From the NCBI GenBank assembly GCA_963971535.1, contig OZ020589.1:53253188-53317187 (forward strand): a stretch of 64,000 nt of DNA, in the 5' to 3' direction. This document shows, piece by piece, positions 211-36,080 of this stretch (the first letter of the stretch is position 1; each line of letters starts with the position of its first letter). This stretch comes from Notolepis coatsorum. Taxonomy: Eukaryota > Chordata > Actinopteri > Aulopiformes > Paralepididae. The position numbers were made by a program, and so were the translations under genes. The notes under the pieces are model-generated. The model was not told where the DNA came from, made no database searches, and saw only the letters and a list, made by a program, of their open reading frames with translations.

Positions 211-1264
211 ATAGTTTATCTCTATTACTGTCATCAACTATAGTTTATCATTATTACTGTCATCAACTGTAGTTTATCATTATTACTGTCATCAACTGTA
301 GTTTATCTGTATTACTGTCATCAACTGTAGTTTATCTGTATTACTGTCATCAACTGTAGTTTATCATTATTACTGTCATCAACTGTAGTTTATCTGTATT
401 ACTGTCATCAACTGTAGTTTATCTGTATTATTGTCATCAACTGTAGTTTATCATTATTACTGTCATCAACTGTAGTTTATCTGTATTACTGTCATCAACT
501 GTAGTTTATCATTATTACTGTCATCAACTGTAGTTTATCATTATTACTGTCATCAACTGTAGTTTATCTGTATTACTGTCATCAACTGTAGTTTATCATT
601 ATTACTGTCATCAACTGTAGTTTATCTGTATTACTGTCATCAACTGTAGTTTATCTGTATTACTGTCATCAACTGTAGTTTATCATTATTACTGTCATCA
701 ACTGTAGTTTATCTGTATTACTGTCAACTGTAGTTTATCATTATTACTGTCATCAACTGTAGTTTATCTGTATTACTGTCATCAACTGTAGTTTATCTGT
801 ATTACTGTCATCAACTGTAGTTTATCTGTATTACTGTCATCAACTATAGTTTATCATTATTACTGTCATCAACTGTAGTTTATCTGTATTACTGTCATCA
901 ACTGTAGTTTATCTGTATTACTGTTATCAACTATAGTTTATCATTATTACTGTCATCAACTGTAGTTTATCATTATTACTGTCATCAACTGTAGTTTATC
1001 ATTATTACTGTCATCAACTGTAGTTTATCTGTATTACTGTCATCAACTGTAGTTTATCTGTATTACTGTCATCAACTGTAGTTTATCTGTATTACTGTCA
1101 TCAACTGTAGTTTATCATTATTACTGTCATCAACTGTAGTTTATCTGTATTACTGTCATCAACTGTAGTTTATCATTATTACTGTCATCAACTGTAGTTT
1201 ATCATTATTACTGTCATCAACTGTAGTTTATCTGTATTACTGTCATCAACTGTAGTTTATCTGT
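211..1264. repeat. 29-bp minisatellite, block 1
   Basis: About 36 tandem copies of a 29-bp unit whose constant core is CATCAACTGTAGTTTATC. The unit comes in two main forms, with CTG or CAT directly after TTTAT. The first units are slightly off consensus (CAACTATAG for CAACTGTAG), as expected at an array edge. Because 29 is not a multiple of three and the unit carries TAG and TTA, no frame stays open, so the array is not coding. Confidence 0.97.
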
Positions 1265-1955
1265 TTTTTTTTTGGATTTGATTTGATATTTTTTATTTTC
1301 GTGTCTTACATACAGATGTATGCCCAGCCCATATGGGCTTACAAGACACATAACAATAAGTATATAATAATATACTTTACCAATTACTTAACAAATGACA
1401 TAGACCAAGATGGCCATAAAAAAAGAAAAATACAAGAAAATACAATAAAACGTAATATAACACAAGCTGTACTCAATGTAAATAAACAGAAAAACAGAAA
1501 AACAAGGTGAATTCAAATACAATTATATAGGATACAGTGTGTTTTGTCTCAGGTGCCATGCCTTCTCCAAAAATCCTGCAAAACCGAAGATGTCCTCCAC
1601 AAAAAAACAACTCAACATACAGCTCTCAGACTGCCAAAACAAATCTGGGTTTGCAATTTGAATTTTTTCAAATAAAGCCCTCCTCAAAGTGGTGTACAAA
1701 GGGCAATAAAAAACAAAATGATATTCATCCTCCACCACTCCCAGATCACACAGAACACACAGCCGCTCCTCCTCAGGTTTACCCTGGAATCTACCCACTT
1801 CCACAGCCAATGGCAGGGTGCCAGACCTCAACTGGGCACACAGAGACCTCCGTCTTCTCTTTAAGTTTAACATTACATAAGGTTCAGTAAAATACTCATT
1901 TTTAATTGCAATATATTTTCTAAGTTTAGGTTTTGATTTGATTTGATTTTGGTTT
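1265..1955 (-). mobile_element. 5'-truncated LINE 3' end (non-LTR retrotransposon)
   Basis: A 690-bp insertion on the minus strand. It encodes the C-terminal tail of a LINE polyprotein and then a 3' UTR ending in a TCAAA-type pentamer tail and an A run (1264-1290 read on the minus strand). The 3' UTR contains an imperfect inverted repeat, GTGTCTT pairing with AAGACAC around 1301-1350, with CCCATATGGG inside it. A second TTTGA-rich stretch lies at the other end (1929-1955). No clear target-site duplication can be told apart from the array itself. Confidence 0.8.
1523..1873 (-). pseudogene. C-terminal fragment of LINE ORF2
   Basis: A 116-residue open stretch with a zinc-knuckle-like Cys-His pattern: ERLCVLCD, about ten residues, then EDEYHFVFYCPLY. 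This pattern lies downstream of the reverse transcriptase in several non-LTR clades found in fish. The reverse transcriptase and endonuclease domains are absent, so this is a dead 5'-truncated copy. The clade (I/Nimb-like or another) cannot be settled from this fragment. The plus-strand frame over the same bases is a shadow. Confidence 0.7.
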
Positions 1956-4092
1956 TGTAGTTTATCATTATTACTGTCATCAACTGTAGTTTATCATTAT
2001 TACTGTCATCAACTGTAGTTTATCATTATTACTGTCATCAACTGTAGTTTATCATTATTACTGTCATCAACTGTAGTTTATCTGTATTACTGTCATCAAC
2101 TGTAGTTTATCATTATTACTGTCATCAACTGTAGTTTATCTGTATTACTGTCATCAACTGTAGTTTATCTGTATTACTGTCATCAACTGTAGTTTATCAT
2201 TATTACTGTCATCAACTGTAGTTTATCTGTATTACTGTCATCAACTGTAGTTTATCATTATTCCTGTCATCAACTGTAGTTTATCATTATTACTGTCATC
2301 AACTGTAGTTTATCATTATTACTGTCATCAACTGTAGTTTATCTGTATTACTGTCATCAACTGTAGTTTATCATTATTACTGTCATCAACTGTAGTTTAT
2401 CATTATTACTGTCATCAACTGTAGTTAACTGTATTACTGTCATCAACTGTAGTTTATCATTATCACTGTCATCAACTGTAGTTTATCTGTATTACTGTCA
2501 TCAACTGTAGTTTATCTGTATTACTGTCATCAACTGTAGTTTATCATTATTCCTGCCATCAACTGTAGTTTATCTGTATTACTGTCATCAACTGTAGTTT
2601 ATCATTATTACTGTCATCAACTGTAGTTTATCATTATTACTGTCATCAACTGTAGTTTATCTGTATTACTGTCATCAACTGTAGTTTATCATTATTACTG
2701 TCATCAACTGTAGTTTATCATTATTACTGTCATCAACTGTAGTTTATCATTATTACTGTCATCAACTGTAGTTTATCTGTATTACTGTCATCAACTGTAG
2801 TTTATCTGTATTACTGTCATCAACTGTAGTTTATCATTATTACTGTCATCAACTGTAGTTTATCTGTATTACTGTCATCAACTGTAGTTTATCATTATTA
2901 CTGTCATCAACTGTAGTTTATCTGTATTACTGTCATCAACTGTAGTTTATCATTATTACTGTCATCAACTGTAGTTTATCATTATTAGTTTATCATTATT
3001 ACTGTCATCAACTGTAGTTTATCTGTATTACTGTCATCAACTGTAGTTTATCATTATTACTGTCATCAACTGTAGTTTATCATTATTACTGTCATCAACT
3101 GTAGTTTATCTGTATTACTGTCATCAACTGTAGTTTATCATTATTACTGTCATCAACTGTAGTTTATCTGTATTACTGTCATCAACTGTAGTTTATCTGT
3201 ATTACTGTCATCAACTGTAGTTTATCATTATTACTGTCATCAACTGTAGTTTATCATTATTACTGTCATCAACTGTAGTTTATCTGTATTACTGTCATCA
3301 ACTGTAGTTTATCATTATTACTGTCATCAACTGTAGTTTATCATTATTACTGTCATCAACTGTAGTTTATCATTATTACTGTCATCACCTGTAGTTTATC
3401 TGTATTACTGTCATCAACTGTAGTTTATCTGTATTACTGTCATCAACTGTAGTTTATCATTATTACTGTCATCAACTGTAGTTTATCTTTATTACTGTGA
3501 TCAACTGTAGTTTATCTTTATTACTGTGATCAACTGTAGTTTATCTGTATTACTGTCATCAACTGTAGTTTATCTGTACTACTGTCATCAACTGTAGTTT
3601 ATCATTATTACTGTCATCAACTGTAGTTTATCTGTATTACTGTCATCAACTGTAGTTTATCTGTATTACTGTCATCAACTGTAGTTTATCATTATTACTG
3701 TCATCAACTGTAGTTTATCATTATTACTGTCATCAACTGTAGTTTATCTGTATTACTGTCATCAACTGTAGTTTATCATTATTACTGTCATCAACTGTAG
3801 TTTATCTGTATTACTGTCATCAACTGTAGTTGATCTGTATTACTGTCATCAACTGTAGTTTATCTGTATTACTGTCATCAACTGTAGTTTATCTGTATTA
3901 CTGTCATCAACTGTAGTTTATCATTATTACTGTCAGCAACTGTAGTTTATCTGTATTACTGTCATCAACTGTAGTTTATCTGTATTACTGTCATCAACTG
4001 TAGTTTATCATTATTACTGTCATCAACTGTAGTTTATCTGTATTACTGTCATCAACTGTAGTTTATCTGTATTACTGTCATCAACTGTAGTT
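1956..4092. repeat. 29-bp minisatellite, block 2
   Basis: About 74 units of the same 29-bp repeat, resuming directly after the LINE fragment. Both unit classes are mixed. A small rearrangement near 2985 (ATTATTAGTTTATCATTATT) and single-base variants such as GATC for CATC near 3490-3540 are present. The block ends in the middle of a unit, at GTAGTT, where the first large TIR element begins. Confidence 0.97.
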
Positions 4093-4132
4093 CTGTATCG
4101 TTAGTGGCTTAGCTTGGCTTCGCCTTCTGCAC
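4090..4132 (+). repeat. Left terminal inverted repeat of element 1
   Basis: Begins GTTCTGTATCGTTAGTGGC and runs to CTTCTGCAC. The same 43 bases read in reverse complement at 8958-9000 without a mismatch. The first three bases coincide with the array sequence, so the true boundary may be 4093. Confidence 0.85.
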
Positions 4133-4280
4133 TATCTCGCGTACGTGCACGCGTACTGAATAAACCACAAATGTACCTCTAATACCAGTATTAGTCTGAC
4201 CACACCCCTCATCAGCTTACCTTCATAAGCAGGTGTGTGGTCACCTGCTCTCCTCCTTCTCGCTTTCACCACAAGGAAGA
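4133..4280 (+). promoter_or_regulatory. Promoter-like left end module of element 1
   Basis: Downstream of the TIR lie ACTGAATAAACC, GACCACACCCCTCATC and ACCTTCATAAGCAGG. The corresponding place in element 2 reads CTATATAAGCAGG, a good TATA box, so this copy may have a weakened form. The whole stretch recurs inverted at about 9070-9240. A promoter role is an inference from the TATA-like position and from GTGAGT donor-like sites further in. Confidence 0.35.
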
Positions 4281-4374
4281 GGTGCCTCGGTAGATCCCCA
4301 CACTTGACACCATGATGGAAGAAATTGGATTAGGAACAGCTTGGGAAACAAGGATACGTTGACATCATATCTTT

Positions 4375-4402
4375 ATTTTCTCTCTCACTATTTTCGAGAA
4401 AA
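4375..4402. other. Conserved hairpin in element 1
   Basis: ATTTTCTC and GAGAAAAT form an 8-bp stem around an 11-base loop. The same stem and loop is present in element 2 near 17077-17104, in a stretch that is almost unchanged between the two otherwise diverged elements. Confidence 0.6.
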
Positions 4403-6418
4403 TACGGCGATATTGTCTTCGTACTGGAGTGTCTAGAAGATGATGATCATTCTACAAACCCTCCACCGGTTTTCGTATTGGGAGCACGCCGCTGCATGCT
4501 TCTCAACTGCAGTTCCTTGCTGTGTTTGTTGGGGTGAAACCTGTCAGGCCACAGCTGAACTGTCGGACATGCCGCTGTTGTGAGGAGCGGTGCGTTCCAG
4601 GTTGGGTGAGTAGTGTTTGCTGGCGGGCTCCACTTGTCTGTTAGTGCTATGGGGGCTACTAGACAAAGTTTATGGAAACCGGCCCCAGGCTAGGGTCCTT
4701 TGTTTAGCCGTCTAGGCGACAGAAGGCCTTGGTCTGGCGACCATTATAGTTTTAACTAGTGGGCCGCGACCATTGACACTGGTGATCCCTGTGTGTTCTG
4801 GACGAGTGGATTCTCTCTGTCACCGTGTTAAGACCCCATCTTTCATATCCAAATGAGAGTATTCCTTCACGAGGGGATATGTGCATGTAATGTGCGATAG
4901 CGGCAGATTCATGTTCAAAGTCAGCTATACAGGCCAGTTGGTACTGTGCTGATTCCGCCGGACGTGTTATTGTCACCGTTGTGAAGCGGTGTTGACGTCT
5001 TGTTTTCTCTTTTCTCTTAAAAAGTGAGGAGGGTTCAGAACGGCGGCCTGTCTGGGTGAGTGTTATGTCATTGTTTACATGTTCATAGCTTACGGTTAGC
5101 CGGTCGGTGGCCTGGCGCGGGGAGCTTGGCTTCTCGCGCGCCGCCGGGAGCTCGCTCCTGATCGCGTGCGTCGTAGATCGGCGTCTCGCGAGCGGAAGCG
5201 ATAGTACCCGAACGGCTGGAGCAGCCGTTAGCTTGATGCTATTCTGTTGAACGTGCTTTGATTTTTAACATGTTTTACACTCTTGACCACGACGTCATCC
5301 TTGACAGGGGATGTTCGTCAACCCTGCCCGAGCCTAGACGGGGATTGCGTCAACAAAGAGGACTGTAGCGACTGGTGGAGCGGCGACGCTGCCCGGATCG
5401 AACAACACGGGACGCTTGTGACTGCACTTCGCTGATCTGCGTTCCGGGCAGGTACGGGGTTGGCCAGACCCTCATAACACGTCTTCTGGTTTTACCTTGC
5501 TAAATGTATTGTGAATGACGGTGTTTTTTCCCAAAACGTGTGTTGTTGCAATGCATTTGAGATACGTTGCGGGTTGTGTGTGAGCTGTTTTTGTCACTGG
5601 CAGTAGCTTCTCCGTGCAGGTCGTGATGTATTGATCTGGTTGTTGTGTGAGAAACATCATGGTGTTTATGTGTACCGTGTACTCACTACTAAGGCAACTA
5701 ACCTATGAAGCTATGCTTGGTGACGAGTGAGTAAAAGAATGTTCTTTCTCAGACTGTAATGACAATGAACAGTGTGTTCACACATTAACAGGTTTTCCTG
5801 TTTTAACTGGCCGTATTGAGGGTAAAATAGGAGGATTGTGTTTTTTCCCCCCCCGGTTCCCTGGGGACTTTATCACCTCCTATCAGACATGTTGTGCATT
5901 AATTGTGTCTTTTGTGTGGTAGGGATACGATGTAACGCTCAGCTTGATTGCTGAGGTTGTGCTAAATCTGCTGGAGAAACTTATTTCCTAAAGGGAAATT
6001 GGTTTGGTTGCTGTCATGTGTGTTTAGCAAGGCCTGTGGTCGATACTAATCAAGAATGATGTATTCTCTCATTGTGATGATGATGGGTTGTGTGTGTCAT
6101 GTGACCTACAACTGGGTTGTACTGGCCACAGAAGCACATGTGTATGTTGGACCGGGGTTCTTAGAGCCCTCTCTATTCTGTGTTTTTCCTTAGTAAAAGT
6201 CAGATAGCAGGTTAGCTCGTGCGCTGTGTGGAGCTGTGAAACGCTTCATAGAGCTGACTATGACTGTGTCATATTCTCTTTTTGTCGTTACGTCGTATCA
6301 TGGGTGTGGGGTCGTAAAGGGGTGAACTGGTAACCTTTCCTCTCCCCATTGTCTGTCGGTCAGGGGTACACCCCCTGTCCTTCAAGGTTCCCGTCACGTG
6401 GCGGTTCGGCACGTCACG

Positions 6419-6441
6419 GGGGGGGGGGGGGGGGGGGGGGG
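6419..6441. repeat. Poly-G tract in element 1
   Basis: An uninterrupted run of more than 20 G. Element 2 has a similar run at about 19492-19512 at the same place. Its length is likely to be unreliable in the assembly. Confidence 0.85.
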
Positions 6442-7645
6442 AGGGAGTTCCTGGTCCCACGGCCTGGTATATTGGGCGTGTGCACCGCAGGAATTCCCCC
6501 GCCATAGAGTACGTCACCGTGCGCGTCTCTGTTGGTAGGACTTCCGTGTGCTGTTCAGGTCCATGTGATGGATCTGTTTTCAGGGGGGGTGGTCAGGGCT
6601 CCTCCTCACCAAGCGCCTACTCAGGCCTTCTGTGAGTTCGGACTCCTTCTTCCATGTGATCCATGTGAGGAAGCCTCCATCAGAGTACAGAGCCTTCCTC
6701 CTCAGATTGTCAAAGTGAGTGGACCCTCTAGAAGGGTCCTTTTCTATTGTATGTATATTCGATTCAATTCGTTTATTGAGTGTGTATGGGTTCGGTGCCT
6801 CTTCCCCGGAGGCCCTAAAACCAGTTTTTTACATGGCTCAAGGTGCAATATATTCTTTTCAATCTGTACAGCTCGCGTGGGAAGTCTCTCTGGGGATCCC
6901 CGTCTCTTTCCTATGGGAGGGTGGTGGGATGTAAAAATGTGAACATTTTTTACCCCGGCTGTGTAGACTGGGATACATACTGTTGATGCTTCCTTCTTTC
7001 TATTCCAGAAGTGTTGGAGTTAGGGAGTGTCACACCCCTCTTGTCGTTCCCCTGGGCGCCTTGGGGATTCAATGGCAGGTCTAAATAGCCTGTTCATTGA
7101 TGGGGGTGTGTCCCGACGCACGTATAGTGCTAGCTCGCTGTAAACAGGCGATTGACTGGCACGCCTTAGTTGCTTGTGGTTGAAACAGCGTTTTTATAAA
7201 GCAACTGAGATGGGGGTTTTTCCTCTTCCGGCGACCACATCCCATGACCTGGGTGGGTTGTCGACGGATCCTCGTTCATGTCTGGGGGATGATGACGGGA
7301 TGGATCTGAACATATGTAGTGGGGTCTCACGCCCTTGGGGTGGGCCACCAGGCGCGGTTCGTCCCGACGTCTGGGTGGCGCCTTCTTTTCATGTTAAGAT
7401 CAACACGCATATCTGCCCTTTTCCTGGGGCATGTCGGCGTGGTTAGGGCACGGGACTGGTTCTGGTCACGCTGGTCCAGATCAGTTGAACCCGTTGTCCG
7501 CCGGGGATGCAGATCTGCTGTTCTGGTACCCTGAGGGACTTGGGCTTTTTTCAGGGGGAAAAATGCCAGGTCGGTCTGGGTGTCACAGGGTTAAGCGCTA
7601 TGGAGACCCTGGTTGGGTATGTTTTTACTCAGCACTGTCGTCATG

Positions 7646-7765
7646 GCTTACAGCCATGCCATTCTGTACGCGCTCGATCTCGTCGGATCTCGGCCGCTAC
7701 ACAGGTTGGTCCTGGTTAGTACTTGGTTGGGAGACCGCCGGGGAATACCAGGAACGGTGTGCTTA
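7646..7765 (+). ncRNA. 5S rRNA-like module (pseudogene-like) in element 1
   Basis: About 120 bp, the length of a eukaryotic 5S rRNA, with its landmarks in order: GCTTACAGCCATGCCA at the start, CGATCTCGTCGGATCTCGG, CCTGGTTAGTACTTGG, GGGAGACCGCC and GGGAATACCAGG near the end. The internal control region (box C around the GGGAGACCGCC part) is well kept, while the first third and the last ten bases have drifted. A TTTTT run follows about 20 bp downstream (near 7784), a possible Pol III terminator. It is absent from element 2, which lacks the surrounding 870 bp or so. It could be a captured 5S gene, or a 5S-derived SINE (SINE3-like) head. Confidence 0.8.
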
Positions 7766-8345
7766 GGGGCTGGTTCTCCATTGTTTTTCGCTCCTCTCTC
7801 ACGCATGGCGAAGAGGGGCCTGTGGGGGTGGTTTTTTGACCTCCTCTGGTGACCCTGTGCTTCCCGTACCGCCAGGCCCGGTCCGAAGTGATGTTTGCGA
7901 CCCGTAGGCCTGGGTTAACCCTTTTTGGAAACTGGAACACTTGTACTGCGGTATAGCCGGTGTATACCCGCAGGTGTGTTTTGGAGTTTTTTCTTGAGGG
8001 GTTATAGGAACAACCACCGCATTGGGTAACACCGAGGTGGTTGATTCCCTGGTGTGTTGGAGCAGTGTCAACTCCCGGGTTCACCGGTTGAGGGTGCCCC
8101 TGCACGTTCATGACGTCTGCCAATCGTGTCAGCCTTCTCTGCCTCGACCCCTCTGGGTGGGGGTTGTTAAATGGAGGCTTGGTCATGCAACACCGCCAGC
8201 TTACGCTCCTTCCGCCGGGGCGGCTGTGTTCAGCTGTCCCCTCTGGCGCCTGTCTCGTCCGCAGTCTCCAGGCTAGGGTTAGCAGCCTGTTGCCTGGTTT
8301 TTCCCCGGTGCGCTGCCTGCTTCCGTTGGTTAACCTTTTTTGTGT

Positions 8346-8472
8346 GCTTACGGCCATGCTGACTGCCTATTCTGCAGGGTCAGTGTGCCAGGCGGTGTAC
8401 TATTGGGGGGACGGGGCCCGCTCGGCTTACTGGCCTGGTTGGTTCCGCCTGGGAATACCAGGTGCAGTAACT
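8346..8472 (+). ncRNA. Second, degenerate 5S-like module
   Basis: Starts GCTTACGGCCATGC, as a 5S gene does, and ends CCGCCTGGGAATACCAGG TGCAGTAA, close to the 5S 3' end. The roughly 70 bp between are only faintly 5S-like (CAGGGTCAG, then CTGGCCTGGTTGGTT). In element 2 the first half is kept (from 20540) but the 3' half is gone. A 5S origin is likely for the ends and unproven for the middle. Confidence 0.5.
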
Positions 8473-8934
8473 GAGGGGCCTTTGTCCGAATACGCTGGCG
8501 ATGTGGGGGGCGGGGCACTACGTGCCCACCTGGTGGGGTCTTGATGCTGGCATCATGGACTTCTCCGGGCCCCCATTCCAGGGAGTCCAGTCCTTTTGGT
8601 GGGTCTGGGTCTTCCTTCGTGCTCCGCTGCTACGGCCTTGCCACGGGGTTGGGTTTGCCCTTGACCCCGTGATTCTGGGGGCAGTAACGAGGTTGTTCCT
8701 CCGTTCGTTCCCGGGTGGCATGCGGGTTGTGCGTGTGTGTAGTCGTGGGTCAAGCCACGGTCTGCTCACCCTGTGCGTTAAGTTGCTTGAGAGCTCTTCG
8801 CACGGTCGGGTCCGTCGCCTTCCCGTGAAGCCTCTAATAGGGGGGATACCCTCCATTAGGGGGGGTCGGGGGGGCTCGGCCATCCCTGTTCTGATGGTTT
8901 TGGGGGGCTGTCAGCGGGGTGTATTTGTCAGCCA

Positions 8935-8987
8935 AGTGGCTCCGCTTGGCCTCCCTTGTGCAGAAGGCGAAGCCAAGCTAAGCCACT
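8935..8987. other. Hairpin at the right end of the element 1 body
   Basis: Arms at 8935-8950 (AGTGGCTCCGCTTGGC) and 8972-8987 (GCCAAGCTAAGCCACT) pair with two mismatches around a 21-base loop. Element 2 has a hairpin at the same place (21091-21137) with an unrelated stem sequence, so the structure and not the sequence is shared. Confidence 0.7.
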
Positions 8988-9000
8988 AACGATACAGAAC
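8958..9000 (-). repeat. Right terminal inverted repeat of the element 1 body
   Basis: Exact reverse complement of 4090-4132, ending GATACAGAAC at 9000. It is followed directly by the 22-bp spacer, not by minisatellite sequence. Confidence 0.85.
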
Positions 9001-9291
9001 GTTAGGTTATGACTATAACCAAGTTCTGTTAGTTAGGGGCGATGCTTGGCTTCGGACGGCCGCTGCAGCCCTTGACCTCACCTTGTGGTGAAAGCTTGGG
9101 AAGGAGGAGAGCAGGTGACCACACACCTGCTTATGAAGGTAAGCTGATGAGGGGTGTGGTCAGACTAATACTGGTATTAGAGGTACATTTGTGGTTTATT
9201 CAGTACGCGTGCACGTACGCGAGATAGTGCAGAAGGCGAAGCCAAGCATCGCCCCTAACTAACAGAACTTGGTTATAGTCATAACCTAACG
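9001..9291. repeat. Fold-back end module of element 1
   Basis: A 290-bp unit that begins GTTAGGTTATGACTATAACC and ends with the reverse complement of that string at 9271-9290. Inside it, GTTCTGTTAGTTAGGGG (from 9023) pairs with CCCCTAACTAACAGAAC (to 9268). Its interior repeats the element's own left end in inverse orientation (identical over about 150 bp). It could be a separate small foldback transposon sitting beside the body, or an extra end produced by aberrant transposition. Confidence 0.8.
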
Positions 9292-11360
9292 TTTATCATT
9301 ATTACTGTCATCAACTGTAGTTTATCTGTATTACTGTCATCAACTGTAGTTTATCATTATTACTGTCATCAACTGTAGTTTATCTGTATTACTGTCATCA
9401 ACTGTAGTTTATCTGTATTACTGTCATCAACTGTAGTTTATCTGTATTACTGTCATCAACTGTAGTTTATCTGTATTACTGTCATCAACTGTAGTTTATC
9501 TGTATTACTGTCATCAACTGTAGTTTATCTGTATTACTGTCATCAACTGTAGTTTATCATTATTACTGTCATCAACTGTAGTTTATCTGTATTACTGTCA
9601 TCAACTGTAGTTTATCTGTATTACTGTCATCAACTGTAGTTTATCATTATTACTGTCATCAACTGTAGTTTATCATTATTACTGTCATCAACTGTAGTTT
9701 ATCTGTATTACTGTCATCAACTGTAGTTTATCTGTATTACTGTCATCAACTGTAGTTTATCTGTATTACTGTCATCAACTGTAGTTTATCATTATTACTG
9801 TCATCAACTGTAGTTTATCTGTATTACTGTCATCAACTGTAGTTTATCATTATTACTGTCATCAACTGTAGTTTATCTGTATTACTGTCATCAACTGTAG
9901 TTTATCATTATTACTGTCATCAACTGTAGTTTATCTGTATTACTGTCATCAACTGTAGTTTATCTGTATTACTGTAATCAACTGTAGTTTATCATTATTA
10001 CTGTCATCAACTGTAGTTTATCATTATTACTGTCATCGACTGTAGTTTATCTGTATTACTGTCAGCGACTGTAGTTTATCATTATTACTGTCATTATTAC
10101 TGTCATCAACTGTAGTTTATCATTATTACTGTCATCAACTGTAGTTTATCTGTATTACTGTCATCAACTGTAGTTTATCTGTATTACTGTCATCAACTGT
10201 AGTTTATCATTATTACTGTCATCAACTGTAGTTTATCTGTATTACTGTCATCAACTGTAGTTTATCATTATTACTGTCATCAACTGTAGTTTATCATTAT
10301 TACTGTCATCAACTGTAGTTTATCTGTATTACTGTCATCAACTGTAGTTTATCTGTATTACTGTCATCAACTGTAGTTTATCTGTATTACTGTCATCAAC
10401 TGTAGTTTATCATTATTACTGTCATCAACTGTAGTTTATAATTATTACTGTCATCAACTGTAGTTTATCTGTATTACTGTCATCAACTGTAGTTTATCAT
10501 TATTACTGTCATCAACTGTAGTTTATCTGTATTACTGTCATCAACTGTAGTTTATCTGTATTACTGTCATCAACTGTAGTTTATCATTATTACTGTCATC
10601 AACTGTAGTTTATCTGTATTACTGTCATCAACTGTAGTTTATCTGTATTACTGTCATCAACTGTAGTTTATCATTATTACTGGCATCAACTGTAGTTTAT
10701 CTGTATTACTGTCATCAACTGTAGTTTATCATTATTACTGTCATCAACTGTAGTTTATCATTATTACTGTCATCAACTGTAGTTTATCTGTATTACTGTC
10801 ATCAACTGTAGTTTATCTGTATTACTGTCATCAACTGTAGTTTATCATTATTACTGTCATCAACTGTAGTTTATCATTATTACTGTCATCAACTGTAGTT
10901 TATCATTATTACTGTCATCAGTTTATCATTATTACTGTCATCAACTGTAGTTTATCTGTATTACTGTCATCAACTGTAGTTTATCATTATTACTGTCATC
11001 AACTGTAGTTTATCATTATTACTGTCATCGACTGTAGTTTATCTGTATTACTGTCATCGACTGTAGTTTATCATTATTACTGTCATCAACTGTAGTTTAT
11101 CTGTATTACTGTCAGCAACTGTAGTTTATCTTTATTACTGTCATCAACTGTAGTTTATCTGTATTACTGTCATCAACTGTAGTTTATCTGTATTACTGTC
11201 ATCACCTGTAGTTTAAATGCATTAGTGTCATCAACTGTAGTTTATCATTATTACTGTCATCAACTGTAGTTTATCTGTATTACTGTCATCAACTGTAGTT
11301 TATCTGTATTACTGTCATCAACTGTAGTTTATCATTATTACTGTCATCAACTGTAGTTTC
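9292..11360. repeat. 29-bp minisatellite, block 3
   Basis: About 71 units. The array resumes in the same unit, at TTTATC, at which element 1 entered. Variants include CATCGACTG units, TTTAAATGCATTAGTG near 11213, and partial units near 10090 and 10920. Confidence 0.97.
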
Positions 11361-12749
11361 ATAATAAACCTCTCCATAAAACAGGGACACGTCCCCAAGG
11401 ACTTCAAAATTGCGAGAGTGACCCCTCTGCACAAAAAAGGCAGTAAATTAGACCCAGGCAACTACCGCCCTGTTTCTATCCTTACCTCCATCTCGAAAGT
11501 CATGGAAAAAATTGTATACGAACAGGTCGAAAAATACCTTGCGGAAAAAAATCTAATCTACGAATTCCAATCTGGCTTCAGAACATCCCACTCCACTGAC
11601 ACATGCCTTCTCTATTTAAATGACCACATCAAACAAGAGGTGGACGCGGGCAAATACTGCAGCATGGTCATGCTGGACCTACAAAAGGCCTTCGACACTG
11701 TCAATCACACCATTCTGATTGACAAGCTAAAAGCAATTGGTTTTGATAGTCTATCAGTGAGCTGGATGCAATCCTTCCTGGAGGGGAGAGAGCAGATGGT
11801 GGAGGTAAACGGTACCCTATCCCCCCCCCTCACAGTAAGCTGTGGTGTTCCACAAGGAAGCATACTAGGTCCGCTACTGTTCCTAATTTATGCAAATGAC
11901 ATGTCGTCAGCTTGTGACTGCAACTTGTTCCTGTTTGCGGACGACTCAGCCCTGCTGGTCTCTGACAAGAACAAGTTACAGGTTGAAAAAACCCTCAGCT
12001 CAGAACTAGGCAAAATCTGCATATGGCTCGCTGATAACAAACTATCATTACACATGGGCAAAACAGAGTCCATTCTCTTCGGTTCAAATAACAAACTCAG
12101 CAAGACCGACGGCTTCTCAGTTACAGTGGGTGACAATATTGTCACAAGGAAAGAAGATATTACCTACCTGGGTTCCATCCTAGAGGCAAATCTTTCCTGT
12201 GACAAAATGGCATCCAATGTAATAAAAAAAGTCAACCAACGAACTCGATTCTTGTACCGGATCTCCTCACTGGTAAACAAGAATACCCTGAAGACTCTAG
12301 CAGGAGCACTCATTCAAGGGTACTACGACTATGCTTGCACCTCATGGTACCAAAGCACCTCAAAGGCGCTAAAAACAAAATTACAAACATCTCAAAACAA
12401 ACTGGTCAGACTACTGCTTGACCTTACTCCTAGAACCCACCTCACCCCTGCCCACTTTGACAACCTAGGATGGCTTAGAGTAGACGACAGAGTACAGCAA
12501 CTTGCAATGGGCCTGGTCTACAAGATACACTACACGACCAAGGTACCCATGTACATGACAAAATACTTCCCAAAGGTCAGTGAATACCACGATCACAACA
12601 CCAGAGGGAGCTCCACAAATCATGTTAAACCCAGATTTGGCTCAAACAAGGGACTAAACACGTTTCGCAATTATGCCACATCAATGTGGAACGCCCTACC
12701 CAAAGCTGTAAAGGAATGTGAATCACTACCCACTTTCAAAAACACCTAA
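11361..12749 (+). pseudogene. LINE ORF2 reverse transcriptase (copy A)
   Basis: Reverse transcriptase and C-terminal region of a non-LTR retrotransposon. The motifs run in order: GNYRPVSIL, SGFRTSHSTDT, MLDLQKAFDTV with a catalytic Asp, GVPQGSILGPLLFLIYAND, LFLFADDSALL with the catalytic Asp pair, then the KxESILFGS thumb-side motif. The end region (GWLRVDDRVQQLAMGLVYK ... MWNALPKAVK) is typical of CR1/L2/Daphne-type elements. No endonuclease domain is present because the 5' part is missing. Compared with copy B, a short deletion near the end replaces the normal C-terminus with an early stop after PTFKNT. An ORF call starting at the GTG of 11418 has no biological meaning; the frame continues upstream to the insertion edge. 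Confidence 0.9.
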
Positions 12750-13270
12750 GGGAGACTGCAACTCGAAACTGGCCCCTGTAAATGTCCGAACACAACCCCC
12801 TCCAATGTACAGTAAATTACCAAGTATGGTCTTGTCAATAATCCAATGTACAGTTTTGTTTGTACAGTTGTACAGTGTCCCCCACCCACCCCTCCTACCC
12901 AACCCCCCCCCCCCCACTCCTACCCACCCCCCCCCACCCAACCACCTCCAATGTACAGTCCCCCCCCACCCCCACCTACCCAATCCAATGTACAGTTTCT
13001 ACGTCAAATGTATATACTCTTTTTTTTTTTTTTTTTTTTTTTTACTCTTTTTGTATCACAAACAGTACTGTAATTGCAAATCTGGTATGTCATGAATGTA
13101 TAGATGTAGCAGTACTGTCTATCTGTATGTCATGTATGTCATATATGTTACGATTAATTGAAAATGGGGGTCCCTGATGTAAACAAGACGAAAGTCTTTC
13201 TCTGGTCTGCATCCCCTTAACAATTGTATGTATTGAGCTGTACTGTACTGTACCCATTCTGCAATCTGTT

Positions 13271-13276
13271 AATAAA
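13271..13276 (+). terminator. Polyadenylation signal of LINE copy A
   Basis: AATAAA a few bases before the tetranucleotide tail. LINE copy B has the same hexamer before its tail, at about 27175-27180. Confidence 0.6.
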
Positions 13277-13279
13277 GTT

Positions 13280-13313
<34 letters not shown>

Positions 13314-14074: not shown

Positions 14075-16787
14075 GTGATCAACTGTAGTTTATCTGTATT
14101 ACTGTCATCAACTGTAGTTTATCTGTATTACTGTCATCAACTGTAGTTTATCATTATTACTGTCATCAACTGTAGTTTATCTGTATTACTGTCATTAACT
14201 GTAGTTTATCTGTATTACTGTCATCAACTGTAGTTTAAATGCATTAGTGTCATCAACTGTAGTTTATCATTATTACTGTCATCAACTGTAGTTTATCATT
14301 ATTACTGTCATCAACTGTAGTTTATCTGTATTACTGTCATCAACTGTAGTTTATCTGTATTACTGTCATAAACTGTAGTTTATCATTATTACTGTGATCA
14401 ACTGTAGTTTATCATTATTACTGTGATCAACTGTAGTGTATCTGTATTACTGTCATCAACTGTAGTTTATCATTATTACTGTCATCAACTGTAGTTTATC
14501 TGTATTACTGTCATCAACTGTAGTTTATCATTATTACTGTCATCAACTGTAGTTTATCATTATTACTGTCATCAACTGTAGTTTATCTGTATTACTGTCA
14601 TCAACTGTAGTTTATCATTATTACTGTCATCAACTGTAGTTTATCATTATTACTGTCATCAACTGTAGTTTATCTGTATTACTGTCATCAACTGTAGTTT
14701 ATCTGTATTACTGTCATCAACTGCAGTTTATCTGTATTACTGTCATCAACTGTAGTTTATCATTATTACTGTCATCAACTGTAGTTTATCTGTATTACTG
14801 TCATCAACTGTAGTTTATCTGTATTACTGTCATCAACTGTAGTTTATCTGTATTACTGTCATCAACTGTAGTTTATCTTTATTACTGTCATCAACTGTAG
14901 TTTATCATTATTACTGTCATCAACTGTAGTTTATCTGTATTACTGTCATCGACTGTAGTTTATCTTTATTACTGTCATCAACTGTAGTTTATCATTATTA
15001 CTGTCATCAACTGTAGTTTATCATTATTACTGTCATCAACTGTAGTTTATCTGTATTACTGTCATCGACTGTAGTTTATCTTTATTACTGTCATCAACTG
15101 TAGTTTATCATTATTACTGTCATCGACTGTAGTTTATCATTATTACTGTCATCAACTGTAGTTTATCATTATTACTGTCATCAACTGTAGTTTATCTGTA
15201 TTACTGTCATCGACTGTAGTTTATCTTTATTACTGTCATCAACTGTAGTTTATCATTATTACTGTCATCGACTGTAGGTTATCATTATTACTGTCATCAA
15301 CTGTCGTTTATCATTATTACTGTCATCAACTGTAGTTTATCTGTATTACTGTCATCGACTGTAGTTTATCATTATTACTGTCATCAACTGTAGTTTATCA
15401 TTATTACTGTCATCAACTGTAGTTTATCTGTATTACTGTCATCAACTGTAGTTTATCATTATTACTGTCATCAACTGTAGGTTAAATGCATTAGTGTCAT
15501 CAACTGTAGTTTATCATTATTACTGTCATCAACTGTAGTTTAGCTGTATTACTGTCATCAACTGTAGTTTATCTGTATTACTGTCATCAACTGTAGTTTA
15601 TCATTATTACTGTCATCAACTGTAGTTTATCTGTATTACTGTCATCAACTGTAGTTGATCTGTATTACTGTCATCAACTGTAGTTTATCTGTATTACTGT
15701 CATCAACTGTAGTTTATCATTATTACTGTCATCAACTGTAGTTTATCTGTATTACTGTCATCAACTGTAGTTTATCTGTATTACTGTCATCAACTGTAGT
15801 TTATCTGTATTACTGTCATCAACTGTAGTTTATCTGTATTACTGTGATCAACTTTAGTTTATCTGTATTACTGTCATCAACTGTAGTTTATCATTATTAC
15901 TGTCATCAACTGTAGTTTATCTGTATTACTGTCATCAACTGTAGTTTATCATTATTACTGTCATCAACTGTAGTTTATCATTATTACTGTCATCAACTGT
16001 AGTTTATCTGTATTACTGTCATCAACTGTAGTTTATCATTATTACTGTCATCAACTGTAGTTTATCATTATTACTGTCATCAACTGTAGTTTATCTGTAT
16101 TACTGTCATCAACTGTAGTTTATCATTATTACTGTCATCAACTGTAGTTTATCTGTATTACTGTCATCAACTGTAGTTTATCATTATTACTGTCATCAAC
16201 TGTAGTTTATCATTATTACTGTCATCAACTGTAGTTTATCATTATTACTGTCATCAACTGTAGTTTATCTGTATTACGGTCATCAACTGTAGTTTATCTG
16301 TATTACTGTCATCAACTGTAGTTTATCTGTATTACTGTCATCAACTGTAGTTTATCATTATTACTGTCATCAACTGTAGTTTATCATTATTACTGTCATC
16401 AACTGTAGTTTATCATTATTACTGTCATCAACTGTAGTTTATCTGTATTACTGTCATCAACTGTAGTTTATCTGTATTACTGTCATCAACTGTAGTTTAT
16501 CATTATTACTGTCATCAACTGTAGTTTATCTGTATTACTGTCATCAACTGTAGTTTATCTGTATTACTGTCATCAACTGTAGTTTATCATTATTACTGTC
16601 ATCAACTGTAGTTTATCATTATTACTGTCATCAACTGTAGTTTATCATTATTACTGTCATCAACTGTAGTTTATCTGTATTACAGTCATCGACTGTAGTT
16701 TATCATTATTACTGTCATCAACTGTAGTTTATCATTATTACTGTCATCAACTGTAGTTTAAATGCATTAGTGTCATCAACTGTAGTT
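14075..16787. repeat. 29-bp minisatellite, block 5
   Basis: About 93 units. A stretch at 14870-15400 alternates CATCGACTG units, TTTATCTTT units and standard units in an order seen again near 27,890, 29,580, 47,340, 52,400 and 57,420. That makes it a reusable higher-order cassette. Confidence 0.97.
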
Positions 16788-16825
16788 CTGTATCACACTA
16801 GCTCCCGCTCAGCGTCTCATTGCAT
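16785..16825 (+). repeat. Left terminal inverted repeat of element 2
   Basis: Begins GTTCTGTATCACACTAGCTC. The first ten bases are shared with element 1 and the rest is different. Its inverse ends at 21152. Confidence 0.8.
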
Positions 16826-16911
16826 ATATCTCGCTTCAGCATATATACACTGAATAAATTTCAAAATGTACCTTTAAATGCCAGCATTCATCTGGCCACA
16901 CCCCCATCCGC

Positions 16912-16960
16912 TTACCTATATAAGCAGGGGTGGTGCCACACACTCATCTCCTTTCAAATT
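16912..16960 (+). promoter_or_regulatory. TATA-box-like promoter in the end module of element 2
   Basis: CTATATAAGCAGGGG is a near-ideal TATA box, followed about 30 bp later by the pyrimidine-rich CTCATCTCCTTTC. The same sequence lies inverted in the fold-back module, so the element could fire outward and inward. Promoter activity is an inference. Confidence 0.4.
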
Positions 16961-17797
16961 TCATCACAAGTAACGTGTTGCTCATATGCCCACTTGACGT
17001 GGAGAAAGATATTGGCTGGAAGAGCAATGTTTACGAGGAAAGGAAGAACAAGGAGATACGTTGACATCATATCTTTATTTTCTCTCTCACTATTTTCGAG
17101 AAAATACGGCGATATTGTCTTCGTCACTGGAGTGTTTGGAAGATGGTGATCATTCTAAAATCCTCCACCGGTTTTCGTATTGGGAGCACGCCGCTGCATG
17201 CCTCTCAACTGCAGTTCCTTGCTGTGTTGGTTGGGGTGAAACCTTTCAGGACACAGCTGAACTGTAGGACGCGCCGCTGTTGTGAGAAGCGGTGGGTTTC
17301 AGGTTGGGTGAGTACTGTTTGCTTGCGGCTCCACTTGTCTGTTAGTGCTATGGGGGCTAACTGACTATGTTTACGAACACCGGCCCCAGATTAAGGTCTT
17401 TTGTTCAGCCTCTTAGGCAGCAGCGGAAGACCTTGATCTGAAGCCCATTATAGTTTAACTAGTGGGCCACGACCATTAACACTGGTGATCCCTGTGTTTT
17501 CTGGACGAGTGGATGTCTCTCTGTCACCGTGTTAGGCCCCATCTTTCATATCCAAATGAGAGTATTCTCTCACGAGGAGATATGGGCATAGATGTTCATT
17601 AGCGGAAGATCTGTGTTCAAAGTCAGCTACACAGGCCAGTTGGGTATTGTGCTGGCTCCGTCGGGTGTTGGTAAAATCACTGTTGTAAAACTGTGTTAAC
17701 ATCTTGTTTCTCTTTTCTCTTAAAAAGTGAGGAGGGTTTCAGAACGGCGGCCTGTCTGGGTGAGTGTTATATCATTGTGTACAAGTTCAGGTGATAG

Positions 17798-18058
17798 CTG
17801 CTTAGCTTACGTGCTAGTGGTGGCCTACTGTTAGCCAGTCAGCTGTTAGCTGCGGCGCTAGCCTGCTGTGATCACTAGGTGGCCTATCTAGGTTAGGCTA
17901 GGAAACGTTAGCTTGCTGCTATCGCTGCTTAGCTTACGTGCTAGTGGTGGCCTACTGTTAACCAGTCAGCTGTTAGCTGCGGCGCTAGCCTGCTGTGATC
18001 ACTAGGTGAGTAGGTGGCCTACCTGGCTAGGCTAGGAAACGTTAGCTTGCTGCTATCG
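17798..18058. repeat. 137-bp tandem duplication in element 2
   Basis: Two copies, starting at 17798 and 17935, each running from CTGCTTAGCTTACGTGC to GCTTGCTGCTATCG. The copies differ at a few bases and by a short insertion (GTGAGTAG) in the second. Element 1 has only a shortened single version near 5085-5240. Confidence 0.8.
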
Positions 18059-20539
18059 GCCGAGGCCCAGCGCGGGGTGGCTCCGGCTCCTCGCGCGCGC
18101 CGCGGTTCCCAACTCCCCTCTCCCTCACGGGGAGAGGCGGGGGGCATTCGGTTCCCCTCTGGTCGCGTGCGCCGTAGCGTAGCGACCGACGGTTGGAGCG
18201 GCCGTTAGCTTAATGCTACTCTGTTGAACGTGCTTTGATTATAACATATTTTAACACTCTTGACTACGACGTCATCTTTGACAGAGGATGTTCGTCGACC
18301 CTGCCCTGAGCCAGGACGGCAAGGATTGCGTCAACAAAGGGGACCGTAGCGACGGGTTGGAGCGGCGACGCTGGCCGGGTCGGCAACACAGAATGGCTGT
18401 GTTTACTACGGTGCCTTGAGACTGCACTTCGTTGATCTACGCTCCGGGTAGGCAAGGTTTGGCCAGACCGTATACACTTCTTCTGGCTTTCCCTTCTAAA
18501 TGTTTTGTAAATAACGATGTTTTCCAAAACGAGTGTTGTTGCACTACATTTAGGATACGACGCGAGTTATGTGTGAATTGTCTTGTCACTGGTATTTAGC
18601 TTCTCCATGCAAATCGGGTTGTTGTTACAGATGTGAAAATGATCTGGTTTGTTGTGTTGAGAAACATCATGTGTGTTTATATGTACCGTGTACTCACAAC
18701 TAAGGGGGTTAACTAACCTATAAAGCTATGCTTAGTGACAAATGAGTAAAAAATGATTCTTTTCTCAGCCTGTAATGACAATGAACAGTGTGTTCACATA
18801 TTAACAGGTTTTCCTGTTTTAACTGGCCGTATTAAGGGTAAAGTAGGAGGATTGTGTTTCCCCCCGGTTCCCTGGGGACTTCTTCATCCTCCTATCAGAC
18901 ATGTTATTGCACTACATTGTGTCACTGTGTGGTAGGGATGCGATGTAACCCTTAGCTTGATTGCTGAGGTTGTGCTACAACTGCTGGAGAAACTTTATTT
19001 TCCTAAAAGAAAAGATTGTTTGGTCGCTTTCGTGTGTGCTTAGCAAGGCCTGTGGCCGATACTAATCGAGAATTATGTATTCTCTCATTATGAAAAACGG
19101 CGTTCCTCTGTAGAGTGTTTTTGCCATTTTTTGTAGGTGATGATGGGTTGTGTGTGTCATGTGACCTACAACTGGGTTGGACTGGCCACAGAAGCACATG
19201 TGTAAGTTTGGTACCGGGGCTCTTGAAGAGCCCTCTCTATTCTGTGTTTTTTCCTTAGTAAAAATCAGATAGCAGGTTAGCTCATGCGCTGTGTGAAGCT
19301 GTCAGACGCTTCATGGAGCTGACTATGACTGTGTCATACTCTCTTTTTGTCATTACATCGTATCATGGGTGTGGGGTCGTAAAGGGGTGAACTGGTGACC
19401 TTTCCTCCCCCCTTTTTTCTGTTGGTCAGGGGTAAACCCCCTGTCCTTCAAGGTTCCTGTCACGTTGCGGTTCGGCACGTTACAGGGTGAGGGGGGGGGG
19501 GGGGGGGGGGGGAGTTTCCTGGTCCCACGGCCTGGAATATTGGGCGTGTGCACCGCAGAAATTCCCCCGCCATAGAGTACGTCACCGTGCGCGTCTCTGT
19601 TGGTAGGACTTCCGTGTGCTGTTCAGGTCCATGTGATGGATCTGTTTCGGGGGGTGGTCAGGGCTCCTCCTCACCAAGCTCCTATTCGGGCCTTCTGTGA
19701 GTTGGGAATCCTCCTTCCATGTGAGGGAGCCTCCTTCAGAGTACAGAGCCTCCTCCTCAGATTGTCAAGGTGAGTGGACCCTCAAGAAGGAGTCCTACTC
19801 TATTGTGTATGTATTCGATTCAATTCGATTATTGAGTGTGTATGGGTTCAGTGCCTCCTCCCCGGAGAGCCCTAAAACCAATTTTTTACATGGCTCAGGG
19901 TGCAATATATTCTTTTCAATCTGTACAGCTCGCGTGGGAAGTCTCTCGGTGTGCTTGGGGCTGGTTCTCCATTCTTTTTCGCTCCTCTCTCACGCATGGC
20001 GAAGAGGGGCCTGTTGGGGTGGTCTTTGACCTCCTCTGGTGACCCTGTGCTTCCCGTATCGCCGGGCCCGGTCCGAAGTAATGTTTCGTCGACCCGTAGG
20101 CCTGGGTTAACCCTTTTTTGAAAAACTGAAACACTTGTACTGCGGTATAGCCGGTGTATACCCGCAGGTGTGTTTTGGAGTTTTTTCTTGAGGGGTTATA
20201 GGAACAACCACCGCATTGAGTAACACCAAGGTGGTTGATTCCCTGGTGTGTTGGAGCAGTGTCAACTCCCGGGTTCACCGGTTGAGGGTGCCCCTGCACG
20301 TTCATGACGTCTGCCAATCGTGTCAGCCTTCTCTGACTCAACCCCTCTGGGTGGGGTTTTTTTAATGGAGGCTTGGTCATGCAACACCGCCAGCTTACGC
20401 ACCTTCCGCCGGGGCGGCTGTGTTCAGCTGTCTCCTCTGGCGCCTGTCTCGTCCGCAGTCTCCAGGCTAGGGTTAACAGCCTGTTGCCTGGTTTTTCCCC
20501 GGTGCGCTGCCTGCCTCCGTTGGTTAACCTTTTTTGTGT

Positions 20540-20622
20540 GCTTAGGGCCATGCTGACTGCCTGTTCTGCAGGGTCAGTGTGCCAGGCGGTGTACTATTGG
20601 GGGGACAGGGCCCGCTCGGCTG
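20540..20622 (+). ncRNA. Remnant of the degenerate 5S-like module in element 2
   Basis: Matches the first part of 8346-8472 in element 1 (GCTTAGGGCCATGCTG ... CAGGGTCAG), then jumps directly to GAGGGGCCTTTGTCC. The 3' part with GGGAATACCAGG is missing. The 5S assignment rests on the element 1 copy. Confidence 0.4.
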
Positions 20623-21090
20623 AGGGGCCTTTGTCCGAATACGCTGGCGATGTGGGGGGCGGGGTCACTAAGTGCCCACCTGGTGGGGTCTTGATGCTGG
20701 CATCATGGACTTCTCCGGGCCCCCGTTCCAGGGGGTCCAGTCCCTTTGGTGGGTCTGGGTCTTCCTTCGCGCTCCGCTGCTACAGCCTTGCCACGGGGTT
20801 GGGTTTGCCCTTGACCCCGTGATTCTGGGGGCAGTAACGAGGTTGTTTCCTCCGTTCGTTCCCGGGTGGCATGCGGGTTGTGCGTGTGTGTAGTCGTGGG
20901 GTCAAGCCACGGTCTGCTCACCCTGTGCGTTGAGTTGCTTGAGTGCCTCTTCGCACGGTCGAGTCCGTCGCCCTCCCGGGAAACCTCTAATAGGGGGGGT
21001 GCCCTCCATTAGGGGGGGTCGGGGGGGCTCGGCCCTCCCTGTTCTGATGGTTGTGGGGGGCCTTCAGCGGGGTGTATTTGTCGAGCTTCT

Positions 21091-21137
21091 AGCTCCCGCT
21101 CAGCTCCTATTATGCAATGAGACGCTGAGCGTGAGCT
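21091..21137. other. Hairpin at the right end of the element 2 body
   Basis: AGCTCCCGCTCAGC (21091-21104) pairs with GCTGAGCGTGAGCT (21124-21137) with one mismatch and a 19-base loop. It is at the same place as the element 1 hairpin at 8935-8987, but the stem sequence is different. Confidence 0.7.
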
Positions 21138-21152
21138 AGTGTGATACAGAAC

Positions 21153-21440
21153 GTTAGGTTATGACTATAACCAAGTTCTGTTAACACTAGTGGACGCTCT
21201 GCGTCTAGACGCCGCTGCGGCCCTTGATTTTTCATTGTGGTGAAATTTGAAAGGAGATGAGATGTGGCACCACCCCTGCTTATATAGGTAAGCGGATGGG
21301 GGTGTGGCCAGATGAATGCTGGCATTTAAAGGTACATTTTGAAATTTATTCAGTGTATATATGCTGAAGCGAGATATATGCAATGAGACGCTGAGCGTCC
21401 ACTAGTGTTAACAGAACTTGGTTATAGTCATAACCTAACG
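21153..21440. repeat. Fold-back end module of element 2
   Basis: Opens with the same spacer as element 1 (GTTAGGTTATGACTATAACC) and closes with its inverse. Between them, AACACTAGTGGACGCT (from about 21183) faces AGCGTCCACTAGTGTT near 21395-21410. The interior repeats the element's own left end inverted (TTTATTCAGTGTATATATGC and the TATA-containing stretch). Confidence 0.8.
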
Positions 21441-23675
21441 TTTATCATTATTACTGTCATCAACTGTAGTTTATCATTATTACTGTCATCAACTGTAGTT
21501 TATCTGTATTACTGTCATCAACTGTAGTTTATCTGTATTACTGTCATCAACTGTAGTTTATCTGTATTACTGTGATCAACTGTAGTTTATCTGTATTACT
21601 GTCATCAACTGTAGTTTATCATTATTAATGTCATCAACTGTAGTTTATCTGTATTACTGTCATCAACTGTAGTTTATCATTATTACTGTCATCAACTGTA
21701 GTTTATCATTATTACTGTCATCAACTGTAGTTTATCTGTATTACTGTCATCAACTGTAGTGTATCATTATTACTGTCATCAACTGTAGTTTATCTGTATT
21801 ACTGTCATCAACTGTAGTTTATCATTATTACTGTCATCAACTGTAGTTTATCTGTATTACTGTCATCAACTGTAGTTTATCTGTATTACTGTCATCGACT
21901 GTAGTTTATCATTATTACTGTCATCAACTGTAGTTTATCTGTATTACTGTCATCAACTGTAGTTTATCTGTATTACTGTCATCAACTGTAGTTTAAATTC
22001 ATTAGTGTGATCAACTGTAGTTTAAATGCATTAGTGTCATCAACTGTAGTTTATCTGTATTACTGTCATCAACTGTAGTTTATCTGTATTACTGTCATCA
22101 ACTGTAGTTTATCTGTATCACTGTCATCAACTGTAGTTTATCATTATTACTGTCATCAACTGTAGTTTATCTGTATTACTGTCATCAACTGTAGTTTATC
22201 TGTATTACTGTCATCAACTGTAGTTTATCTGTATTACTGTCATCAACTGTAGTTTATCTGTATTACTGTCATCAACTGTAGTTTAAATGCATTAGTGTCA
22301 TCAACTGTAGTTTATCATTATTACTGTCATCAACTGTAGTTTATCTGTATTACTGTCATAAACTGTAGTTTATCATTATTACTGTCATCAACTGTAGTTT
22401 ATCATTATTACTGTCATCAACTGTAGTTTATCTGTATTACTGTCATCAACTGTAGTTTATTTTTATTACTGTGATCAACTGTAGTTTATCTTTATTACTG
22501 TGATCAACTGTAGTTTATCTGTATTACTGTCATCAACTGTAGTTTATCTGTATTACTGTCATCAACTGTAGTTTATCATTATTACTGTCATCAACTGTAG
22601 TTTATCATTATTACTGTCATCAACTGTAGTTTATCTGTATTACTGTCATCAACTGTAGTTTATCTGTATTACTGTCATCAACTGTAGTTTATCATTATTA
22701 CTGTCATCAACTGTAGTTTATCTGTATTTCTGTCATCAACTGTAGTTTATCTGTATTACTGTCATCAACTGTAGTTTATCATTATTACTGTCATCAACTG
22801 TAGTTTATCATTATTACTGTCATCAACTGTAGTTTATCATTATTACTGTCATCAACTGTAGTTTATCTGTATTACTGTCATCAACTGTAGTTTATCATTA
22901 TTACTGTCATCAACTGTAGTTTATCATTATTACTGTCATCAACTGTAGTTTATCATTATTACTGTCATCAACTGTAGTTTATCATTATTACTGTCATCAA
23001 CTGTAGTTTATCTGTATTACTGTCATCAACTGTAGTTTATCTGTATTACTGTCATCAACTGTAGTTTATCATTATTACTGTCATCAACTGTAGTTTATCT
23101 GTATTTCTGTCATCAACTGTAGTTTATCTGTATTACTGTCATCAACTGTAGTTTATCATTATTACTGTCATCAACTGTAGTTTATCATTATTACTGTCAT
23201 CAACTGTAGTTTATCATTATTACTGTCATCAACTGTAGTTTATCTGTATTACTGTCATCAACTGTAGTTTATCATTATTACTGTCATCAACTGTAGTTTA
23301 TCATTATTACTGTCATCAACTGTAGTTTATCATTATTACTGTCATCAACTGTAGTTTATCATTATTACTGTCATCAACTGTAGTTTATCTGTATTACTGT
23401 CATCAACTGTAGTTTATTTTTATTACTGTGATCAACTGTAGTTTATCTGTATTACTGTCATCAACTGTAGTTTATCATTATTACTGTCATCAACTGTAGT
23501 TTATCTGTATTACTGTCATCAACTGTAGTTTATCATTATTACTGTCATCAACTGTAGTTTATCATTATTACTGTCATCAACTGTAGTTTATCTGTATTAC
23601 TGTCATCAACTGTAGTTTATCATTATTACTGTCATCAACTGTAGTTTATCTGTATTACTGTCATCAACTGTAGTT
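21441..23675. repeat. 29-bp minisatellite, block 6
   Basis: About 77 units. It contains a paired marker, a TTTAAATTCATTAGTGTG unit followed by TTTAAATGCATTAGTGTC near 21990-22040, which recurs near 32,601, 33,072, 33,420, 34,212, 44,205, 48,703 and 53,283. Confidence 0.97.
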
Positions 23676-23677
23676 GC

Positions 23678-36063: not shown

Positions 36064-36080
36064 GCCACCCCCTGAATAGG
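36064..36080 (-). other. Purine-rich (polypurine) tract of BEL copy 1
   Basis: On the minus strand CAGGGGGTGGC directly precedes the 3' LTR, the usual place and composition for priming second-strand DNA. Confidence 0.6.

Follow-up and report, generated by a model that had tools for sequence, protein, structure and literature searches.

A non-coding mobile element with DIRS1-like ends in Notolepis coatsorum, very probably a non-autonomous retrotransposon

The window analysed here is a stretch of 64,000 nucleotides from the genome of the fish Notolepis coatsorum (GenBank assembly GCA_963971535.1, contig OZ020589.1, positions 53,253,188 to 53,317,187 of the forward strand), which holds an element at 4090–9293, termed W1, and a second copy at 16785–21442 (plus strand), termed W2. 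An earlier note, made from the letters of this DNA, had described W1 as a composite element with terminal inverted repeats (TIRs) and an architecture matching no named transposon family. We found instead that its plan is the one published for DIRS1-like elements, in the terms used for their ends and circular junction by Piednoel et al. 2011 (PMC3266345), and W1 is very probably a non-autonomous, non-coding DIRS1-like retrotransposon.

The element opens with a left terminus and left inverted terminal repeat (ITR; 4090–4276, plus strand), in which a GTT start shared with the host satellite is followed by a divergent outer part of about 22 nt and then by a conserved ITR of about 147 nt. The body (4277–8957, plus strand), non-coding according to open reading frame (ORF) and Pfam scans, leads into two internal complementary regions (ICRs), which are inverse copies of the left and right end. 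A repeat search and a pairing test showed that the left ICR (8958–9000, minus strand, 43 nt) is a perfect inverse of 4090–4132, and the right ICR (8998–9054, minus strand, 57 nt) a perfect inverse of 9237–9293; the two overlap on AAC at 8998–9000, a strandless 3-bp feature corresponding to the circular junction as PMC3266345 defines it. The right terminus as a whole (9081–9293) consists of the right ITR (9081–9268, minus strand), the inverse of the left one, and a right extension of 25 nt (9269–9293, plus strand), which carries a small GGTTAT/ATAACC hairpin about 5 nt from the right end and finishes in CGTT. The 43-bp perfect inverted repeats that the earlier note assigned to the body are therefore exact, and the ends are clean, but its limits of 4093 and 9291 have to be moved to 4090 and 9293, since the shared GTT belongs to the ends. 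Similarly, the fold-back module and spacer that it described do contain the left end inverted (4100–4276 recurs at 9081–9259, 96% over 179 nt), but they form no separate module, being made up of ICR, right terminus and right extension.

W2 follows the same plan, as had been proposed, with other terminal sequences and a related body: its ICRs run for 20 and 50 nt up to the first mismatch and overlap on AAC at 21150–21152, again without strand. The conserved ITR halves are identical over about 145 nt within W1, and likewise within W2; compared with each other in 150-nt windows, the two elements are 73–98% alike in their bodies and 62–73% alike at their ends. We propose that ends match within an element and differ between W1 and W2 because copying would rebuild all end copies from one template. 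A long hairpin is predicted to adjoin the left ICR in both (8935–8987 in W1, 21089–21139 in W2), its stem differing in sequence and keeping its shape.

To place W1 in its host, the 3.42-Gb genome was searched; the first-look candidate numbers given here and below are not verified copy numbers. The right end of W1 (8958–9291) returned 939 candidates (the 40 scored ones all matching at 100% and lying at dispersed places), the left end 769 (the 40 scored again all at 100%), and the W2-type right end 2480 (40/40 scored at 97–100%). Among 20 loci drawn from the 40 scored right-end places, both ends were present in 17; of the others, L012 is without a left end, L013 comprises the last 491 nt only (8801–9291), and at L026 the left end lies beyond the stretch examined and the body is interrupted by an insert. 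Comparison of the 17 both-end copies with W1 separated two forms, v1 (W1 and eight loci, 99.3–99.9% alike) and v2 (nine loci, 99.5–99.9% alike), which are 71–77% alike in aligned columns; the identity of 99.3–99.9% within forms therefore indicates recent spread. Sixteen further stretches were chosen for odd spacing or an absent partner match, plus four ordinary ones, and v1 copies with both ends occurred in 13 of these 16, including one split by an insert resembling a long interspersed nuclear element (LINE; L029) and one with an internal deletion (L036); L038 is without a left end and L040 without the element. At L047, which has a W2-type right end, only the right part of the element is present, with no ORF longer than 234 aa, and a Pfam scan of the left 3.4 kb gave two matches only, both under their cut-offs. 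A 21-mer from the right end had no exact match in collections of viral contigs and genome contigs, and a megablast search of plasmids was likewise empty.

Flanks were counted over loci L001–L047 and the window, requiring an exact 26-nt left or 23-nt right end and excluding ends that abut another end. GTT terminates all 34 distinct left flanks and TT begins 35 of the 38 distinct right flanks, and no target duplication extends beyond this GTT/TT core in the flanks compared. W1 thus combines the features of DIRS1-like ends: inverted terminal repeats with a right extension, two ICRs overlapping on a 3-bp circular junction (in W2 as well), and a trinucleotide complementary to that junction at the ends, with no target-site duplication. 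The earlier note had reasoned that dispersed full-length copies with clean ends and constant target duplications would mark a single mobile unit; such copies were found, the duplication was not. Unoccupied repeat units matching the joined flanks were sought for five loci, with eight found for L011, two for L021 and none for L009, L017 and L020. In the window, the unoccupied site for both W1 and W2 is the unit of the 29-bp host satellite (212–4092, no strand; the unit contains GTAGTTTATC), and adding the two Ts at the internal junction to the host TTT gives the five Ts observed, two on the left and three on the right. Flanks and satellite fit a mechanism in which a GTT core common to element and host is exchanged and the target is not duplicated. 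At L027 (844–6014; also L045 and L046), a v2 element has inserted at a GTT inside an older v1-type element, within its right ICR, and at L022 a v1 copy lies within what appears, judged by eye, to be a tRNA gene or tRNA-derived repeat.

These data bear on three other explanations. W1 and W2 occupy the same place in the 29-bp unit, in an array that also holds a further large duplication, as might be expected if the window copies were satellite-array structures multiplied by segmental duplication and not mobile DNA; however, family copies are dispersed in unrelated flanks, and the end sequences of W1 and W2 differ while their bodies agree. Segmental duplication is contradicted for the family, although it may apply to the pair, and as an account of what these structures are we find it scarcely credible. 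It is also very improbable that W1 is a composite of two DNA transposons, namely a TIR element with a fold-back element, similar to a miniature inverted-repeat transposable element, at its right end. Body and module do each have perfect inverted ends of their own, and among the 20 first loci L013 holds 8801–9291 only and L012 has no left end, but L013 retains 157 nt of body adjoining the module and so reads as a truncated copy. Furthermore, neither part is flanked by its own duplication, body and fold-back end occur together with both outer ends in the 17 loci mentioned above, W1 and W2 share the plan despite their different end sequences, and the internal junction has precisely the pair of Ts expected from the outer flanks.

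The third explanation, a non-autonomous Helitron2/Helentron, in which a rolling-circle element with asymmetric terminal inverted repeats and a 3′ hairpin inserts between two Ts, would account for the hairpin near the right end, for repeats offset by 25 nt and for the TT target (PMC3627910, PMC4067079), and composite Helitron2-type elements with several 5′ termini have been described (PMC5148889). Against it, the offset inverted repeats of W1 measure about 170 bp, while those of Helitron2 are given as 8–15 bp (PMC3627910); the accounts of Helitron2/Helentron termini in these papers include no internal joined copy of both ends; G precedes TT in 34/34 left flanks; and the outer left-end hairpin is weak (−3.2 and −2.9 kcal/mol), a strong hairpin occurring only beside the internal copy. 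We dropped this candidate, which we now regard as unlikely, when the ORF of the sister form v2 (see below) and the exact pattern of ICRs and junction pointed to DIRS, for which Table 3 of PMC3266345 provides a fit.

We inspected the coding content of both window copies. The longest ATG-initiated ORF of W1 has 213 aa, a length reached in 6/100 dinucleotide shuffles, and no Pfam family was found in its six frames (five scanned at E 1, the sixth at E 0.01), bearing out the earlier claim of a body without a believable protein; W2, judged by ORF length only, reaches 211 aa. A 344-aa frame in L029 belongs to a stretch inserted into the element. The v2 form, which has the same ends, encodes an ATG-initiated ORF of 557 aa that is intact in 9/9 copies, against a maximum of 272 in 50 shuffles. 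A genome search with this protein returned 17437 first-look candidates, with the frame open at 78/78 scored places, a figure biased by the scoring of the best ones, and a search with its DNA returned 3976, of which 40/40 scored ones matched at 100%; by tblastn it had no significant match to W1, W2 or the window (best E 0.51). Judged by its position and by a putative C-terminal motif of fish DIRS elements, the v2 ORF is probably Gag-like, and such a gag-like ORF1 is absent from W1.

Several results weigh against the assignment of W1 to the DIRS1-like retrotransposons. Neither the pol ORF of such elements (reverse transcriptase, RNase H and methyltransferase) nor their tyrosine recombinase ORF was seen, by Pfam scans in W1 and the v2 copy L010 (no Pfam family in five of its six frames) and by ORF length only in W2 and the other copies. 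Among Pfam families, none matches the 557-aa ORF significantly (best E 0.14), and the right flank does not begin with TT in three of the 38 cases (L008 and L016, which are one place; L018; L044). The satellite flanks do not show that W1 and W2 inserted independently, as zero offset ranked 3rd to 28th of 41 in a unit-shift test. A search for an autonomous partner through PF05869 (Dam) gave no genome match, a weak result that says little on DIRS methyltransferases because the control matched in E. coli only. With PF00589 (Phage_integrase), 18 genome matches exceeded the cut-off (E 5e-5 to 6e-4), but no partner was found: L048, the one place among the 18 that was compared (1.8 kb), shows no similarity by blastn to v1, v2 or W2, and no reverse-transcriptase search was made. 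L048 (C13:168400-170200) is one of seven places sharing the same PF00589 score, and has a 419-aa open frame with a 45-bp inverted repeat downstream; it is perhaps a Crypton-like element. In agreement with the earlier picture of a mobile unit lacking a transposase, none was seen in W1 (six frames) or L010 (five frames), no genome-wide transposase search having been made. W1 is filed as non-autonomous because its ends and integration sites are DIRS1-like, whereas the coding features of autonomous members were tested for and not found.

We compared the forms along their length. W1 and the v2 copy L010 are 98–100% alike in the left ITR and from about 8443 onward, 59–91% alike by window between about 6943 and 8443, and share background likeness only from about 4393 to 6900. 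Together with the comparison of W1 and W2, these alignments indicate that end sets and bodies have been re-combined among W1, W2 and v2.

Additionally, the body of W1 contains sequence derived from 5S rRNA. A full-length insert lies at 7646–7763 on the plus strand (Rfam RF00001, 67.3 bits, E 5.1e-12), upholding the 5S-like module of the earlier note, and comparison of copies revealed a 45-bp remnant of another at 8426–8470, also on the plus strand. The second, degenerate 5S module that the note had mentioned did not appear among the Rfam matches of the window, even with the threshold relaxed to E 5; its 5S origin was seen in a relative, as the older v1-type element at L027/L045 has, at this second site, a 5S match of 55.4 bits that extends over the whole model but lacks some of its middle. 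The first site gave a 5S match in 10/20 loci, all v1-type, and in none of the nine v2 copies, and W2 has an 865-bp gap there. At the second site, the 45-bp insert, with its 5S-like beginning and end, is found in 8/9 v1 sequences, the pattern having no match in L019; it is absent from the nine v2 copies and from W2, which join cleanly, so that W2, claimed to share the plan of W1, does so without either 5S piece. Most simply, two entries of 5S sequence, both on one strand, were followed by decay as the element kept moving, and the state of v2 and W2 may have arisen by loss of the 5S pieces. Such decay in an element that remained mobile speaks for an accidental capture of the 5S pieces and against a 5S promoter that the element needs.

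The DIRS cycle of circle formation and recombination is treated in a 2017 review as proposed and not fully proven by experiment (PMC5633606). Following the published model, an autonomous DIRS element would supply the reverse transcriptase that copies RNA of W1, the ICR would serve as the template on which the two ends are completed and joined to give a circle, and a tyrosine recombinase would exchange GTT at the circle's junction for a genomic GTT, so that W1 would be mobilised in trans. Template switching between co-copied RNAs would re-combine bodies and ends, and the 5S pieces would most simply have arisen when the reverse transcriptase switched template to 5S RNA; the mosaic of W1, W2 and v2 and the 5S inserts look like traces left by such switching during a cycle of this kind. 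More tentatively, and with less probability than its alternatives together, the host may harbour a retrotransposon system split among types of elements with DIRS ends, non-coding and Gag-like-only, both far outnumbering a pol-bearing partner, swapping bodies and termini through template switching and acquiring 5S RNA in the process. The absence of any pol-bearing element carrying these ends would lend weight to this possibility. A protein-less element that keeps its ends and ICRs yet spreads, leaving copies that are nearly identical, offers a natural minimal substrate for the cycle and narrows down which sequences suffice. Searches for coding domains would overlook such elements, whose inverted ends make them easy to mistake for TIR transposons or Helitrons.

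Around W1 and W2, the 29-bp satellite makes up about half of the window, in seven arrays between 212 and 58451 for which a repeat finder indicated higher orders of two and three units. Two BEL/Pao-type long terminal repeat (LTR) retrotransposons lie at 34628–42834 and 58452–64000; the first has Peptidase_A17 and RVT_1 domains, LTRs of about 1.43 kb that are 99.6% alike, and a stop-to-stop open frame of 1733 aa. The region 32683–40178 is repeated at 56522–64000 (98% alike). LINE-like insertions in the satellite were seen at 11360–13311, 23676–27234, 25220–26169 and 54123–56521, one seemingly nested in another, and two of them have TTCA/TCAA tails and sit at different places of the 29-bp unit.

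Finally, we compared W1 with known systems. A literature search in open-licence papers, which is no proof of absence, found no description of non-autonomous DIRS elements. Helitron2/Helentron and HINE elements resemble W1 in offset inverted repeats, a 3′ hairpin and a TT target, but have short repeats and, in the terminal structures presented in PMC3627910 and PMC4067079, no internal joined-end region. SIRE is likewise a truncated, non-autonomous relative of a tyrosine-recombinase retrotransposon, VIPER, yet according to the account in PMC6681497 it is about 0.4 kb long, has split direct repeats, belongs to trypanosomes and is not DIRS1-like. Cassandra, a terminal-repeat retrotransposon in miniature, shares with W1 the lack of proteins and the presence of 5S-related sequence, but its 5S lies in the LTRs, giving a 5S promoter (as outlined in PMC10853983), whereas the 5S pieces of W1 lie in the body, are degenerate and are absent from v2 and W2. 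The closest correspondence is with fish elements listed in Table 3 of PMC3266345. GaDIRS1, GaDIRS2 and TnDIRS1a were found by their coding domains (reverse transcriptase, methyltransferase and tyrosine recombinase), while W1 has no such ORF, a non-coding body and 5S inserts, and TnDIRS1a ends in GAT where W1 ends in GTT. All three nevertheless have the GTT start and AAC junction of W1, with right extensions of 26–27 nt, divergent ITRs of 19–21, conserved ITRs of 144–148, ICRs of 36–46 and 56–57 and a total length of 5.3–5.9 kb. The two stickleback elements share the trinucleotides GTT, GTT and AAC, GaDIRS1 with a divergent ITR of 19, a conserved ITR of 148, a right extension of 27 and ICR 46-56, and GaDIRS2 with corresponding values of 21, 144, 26 and 38-57.

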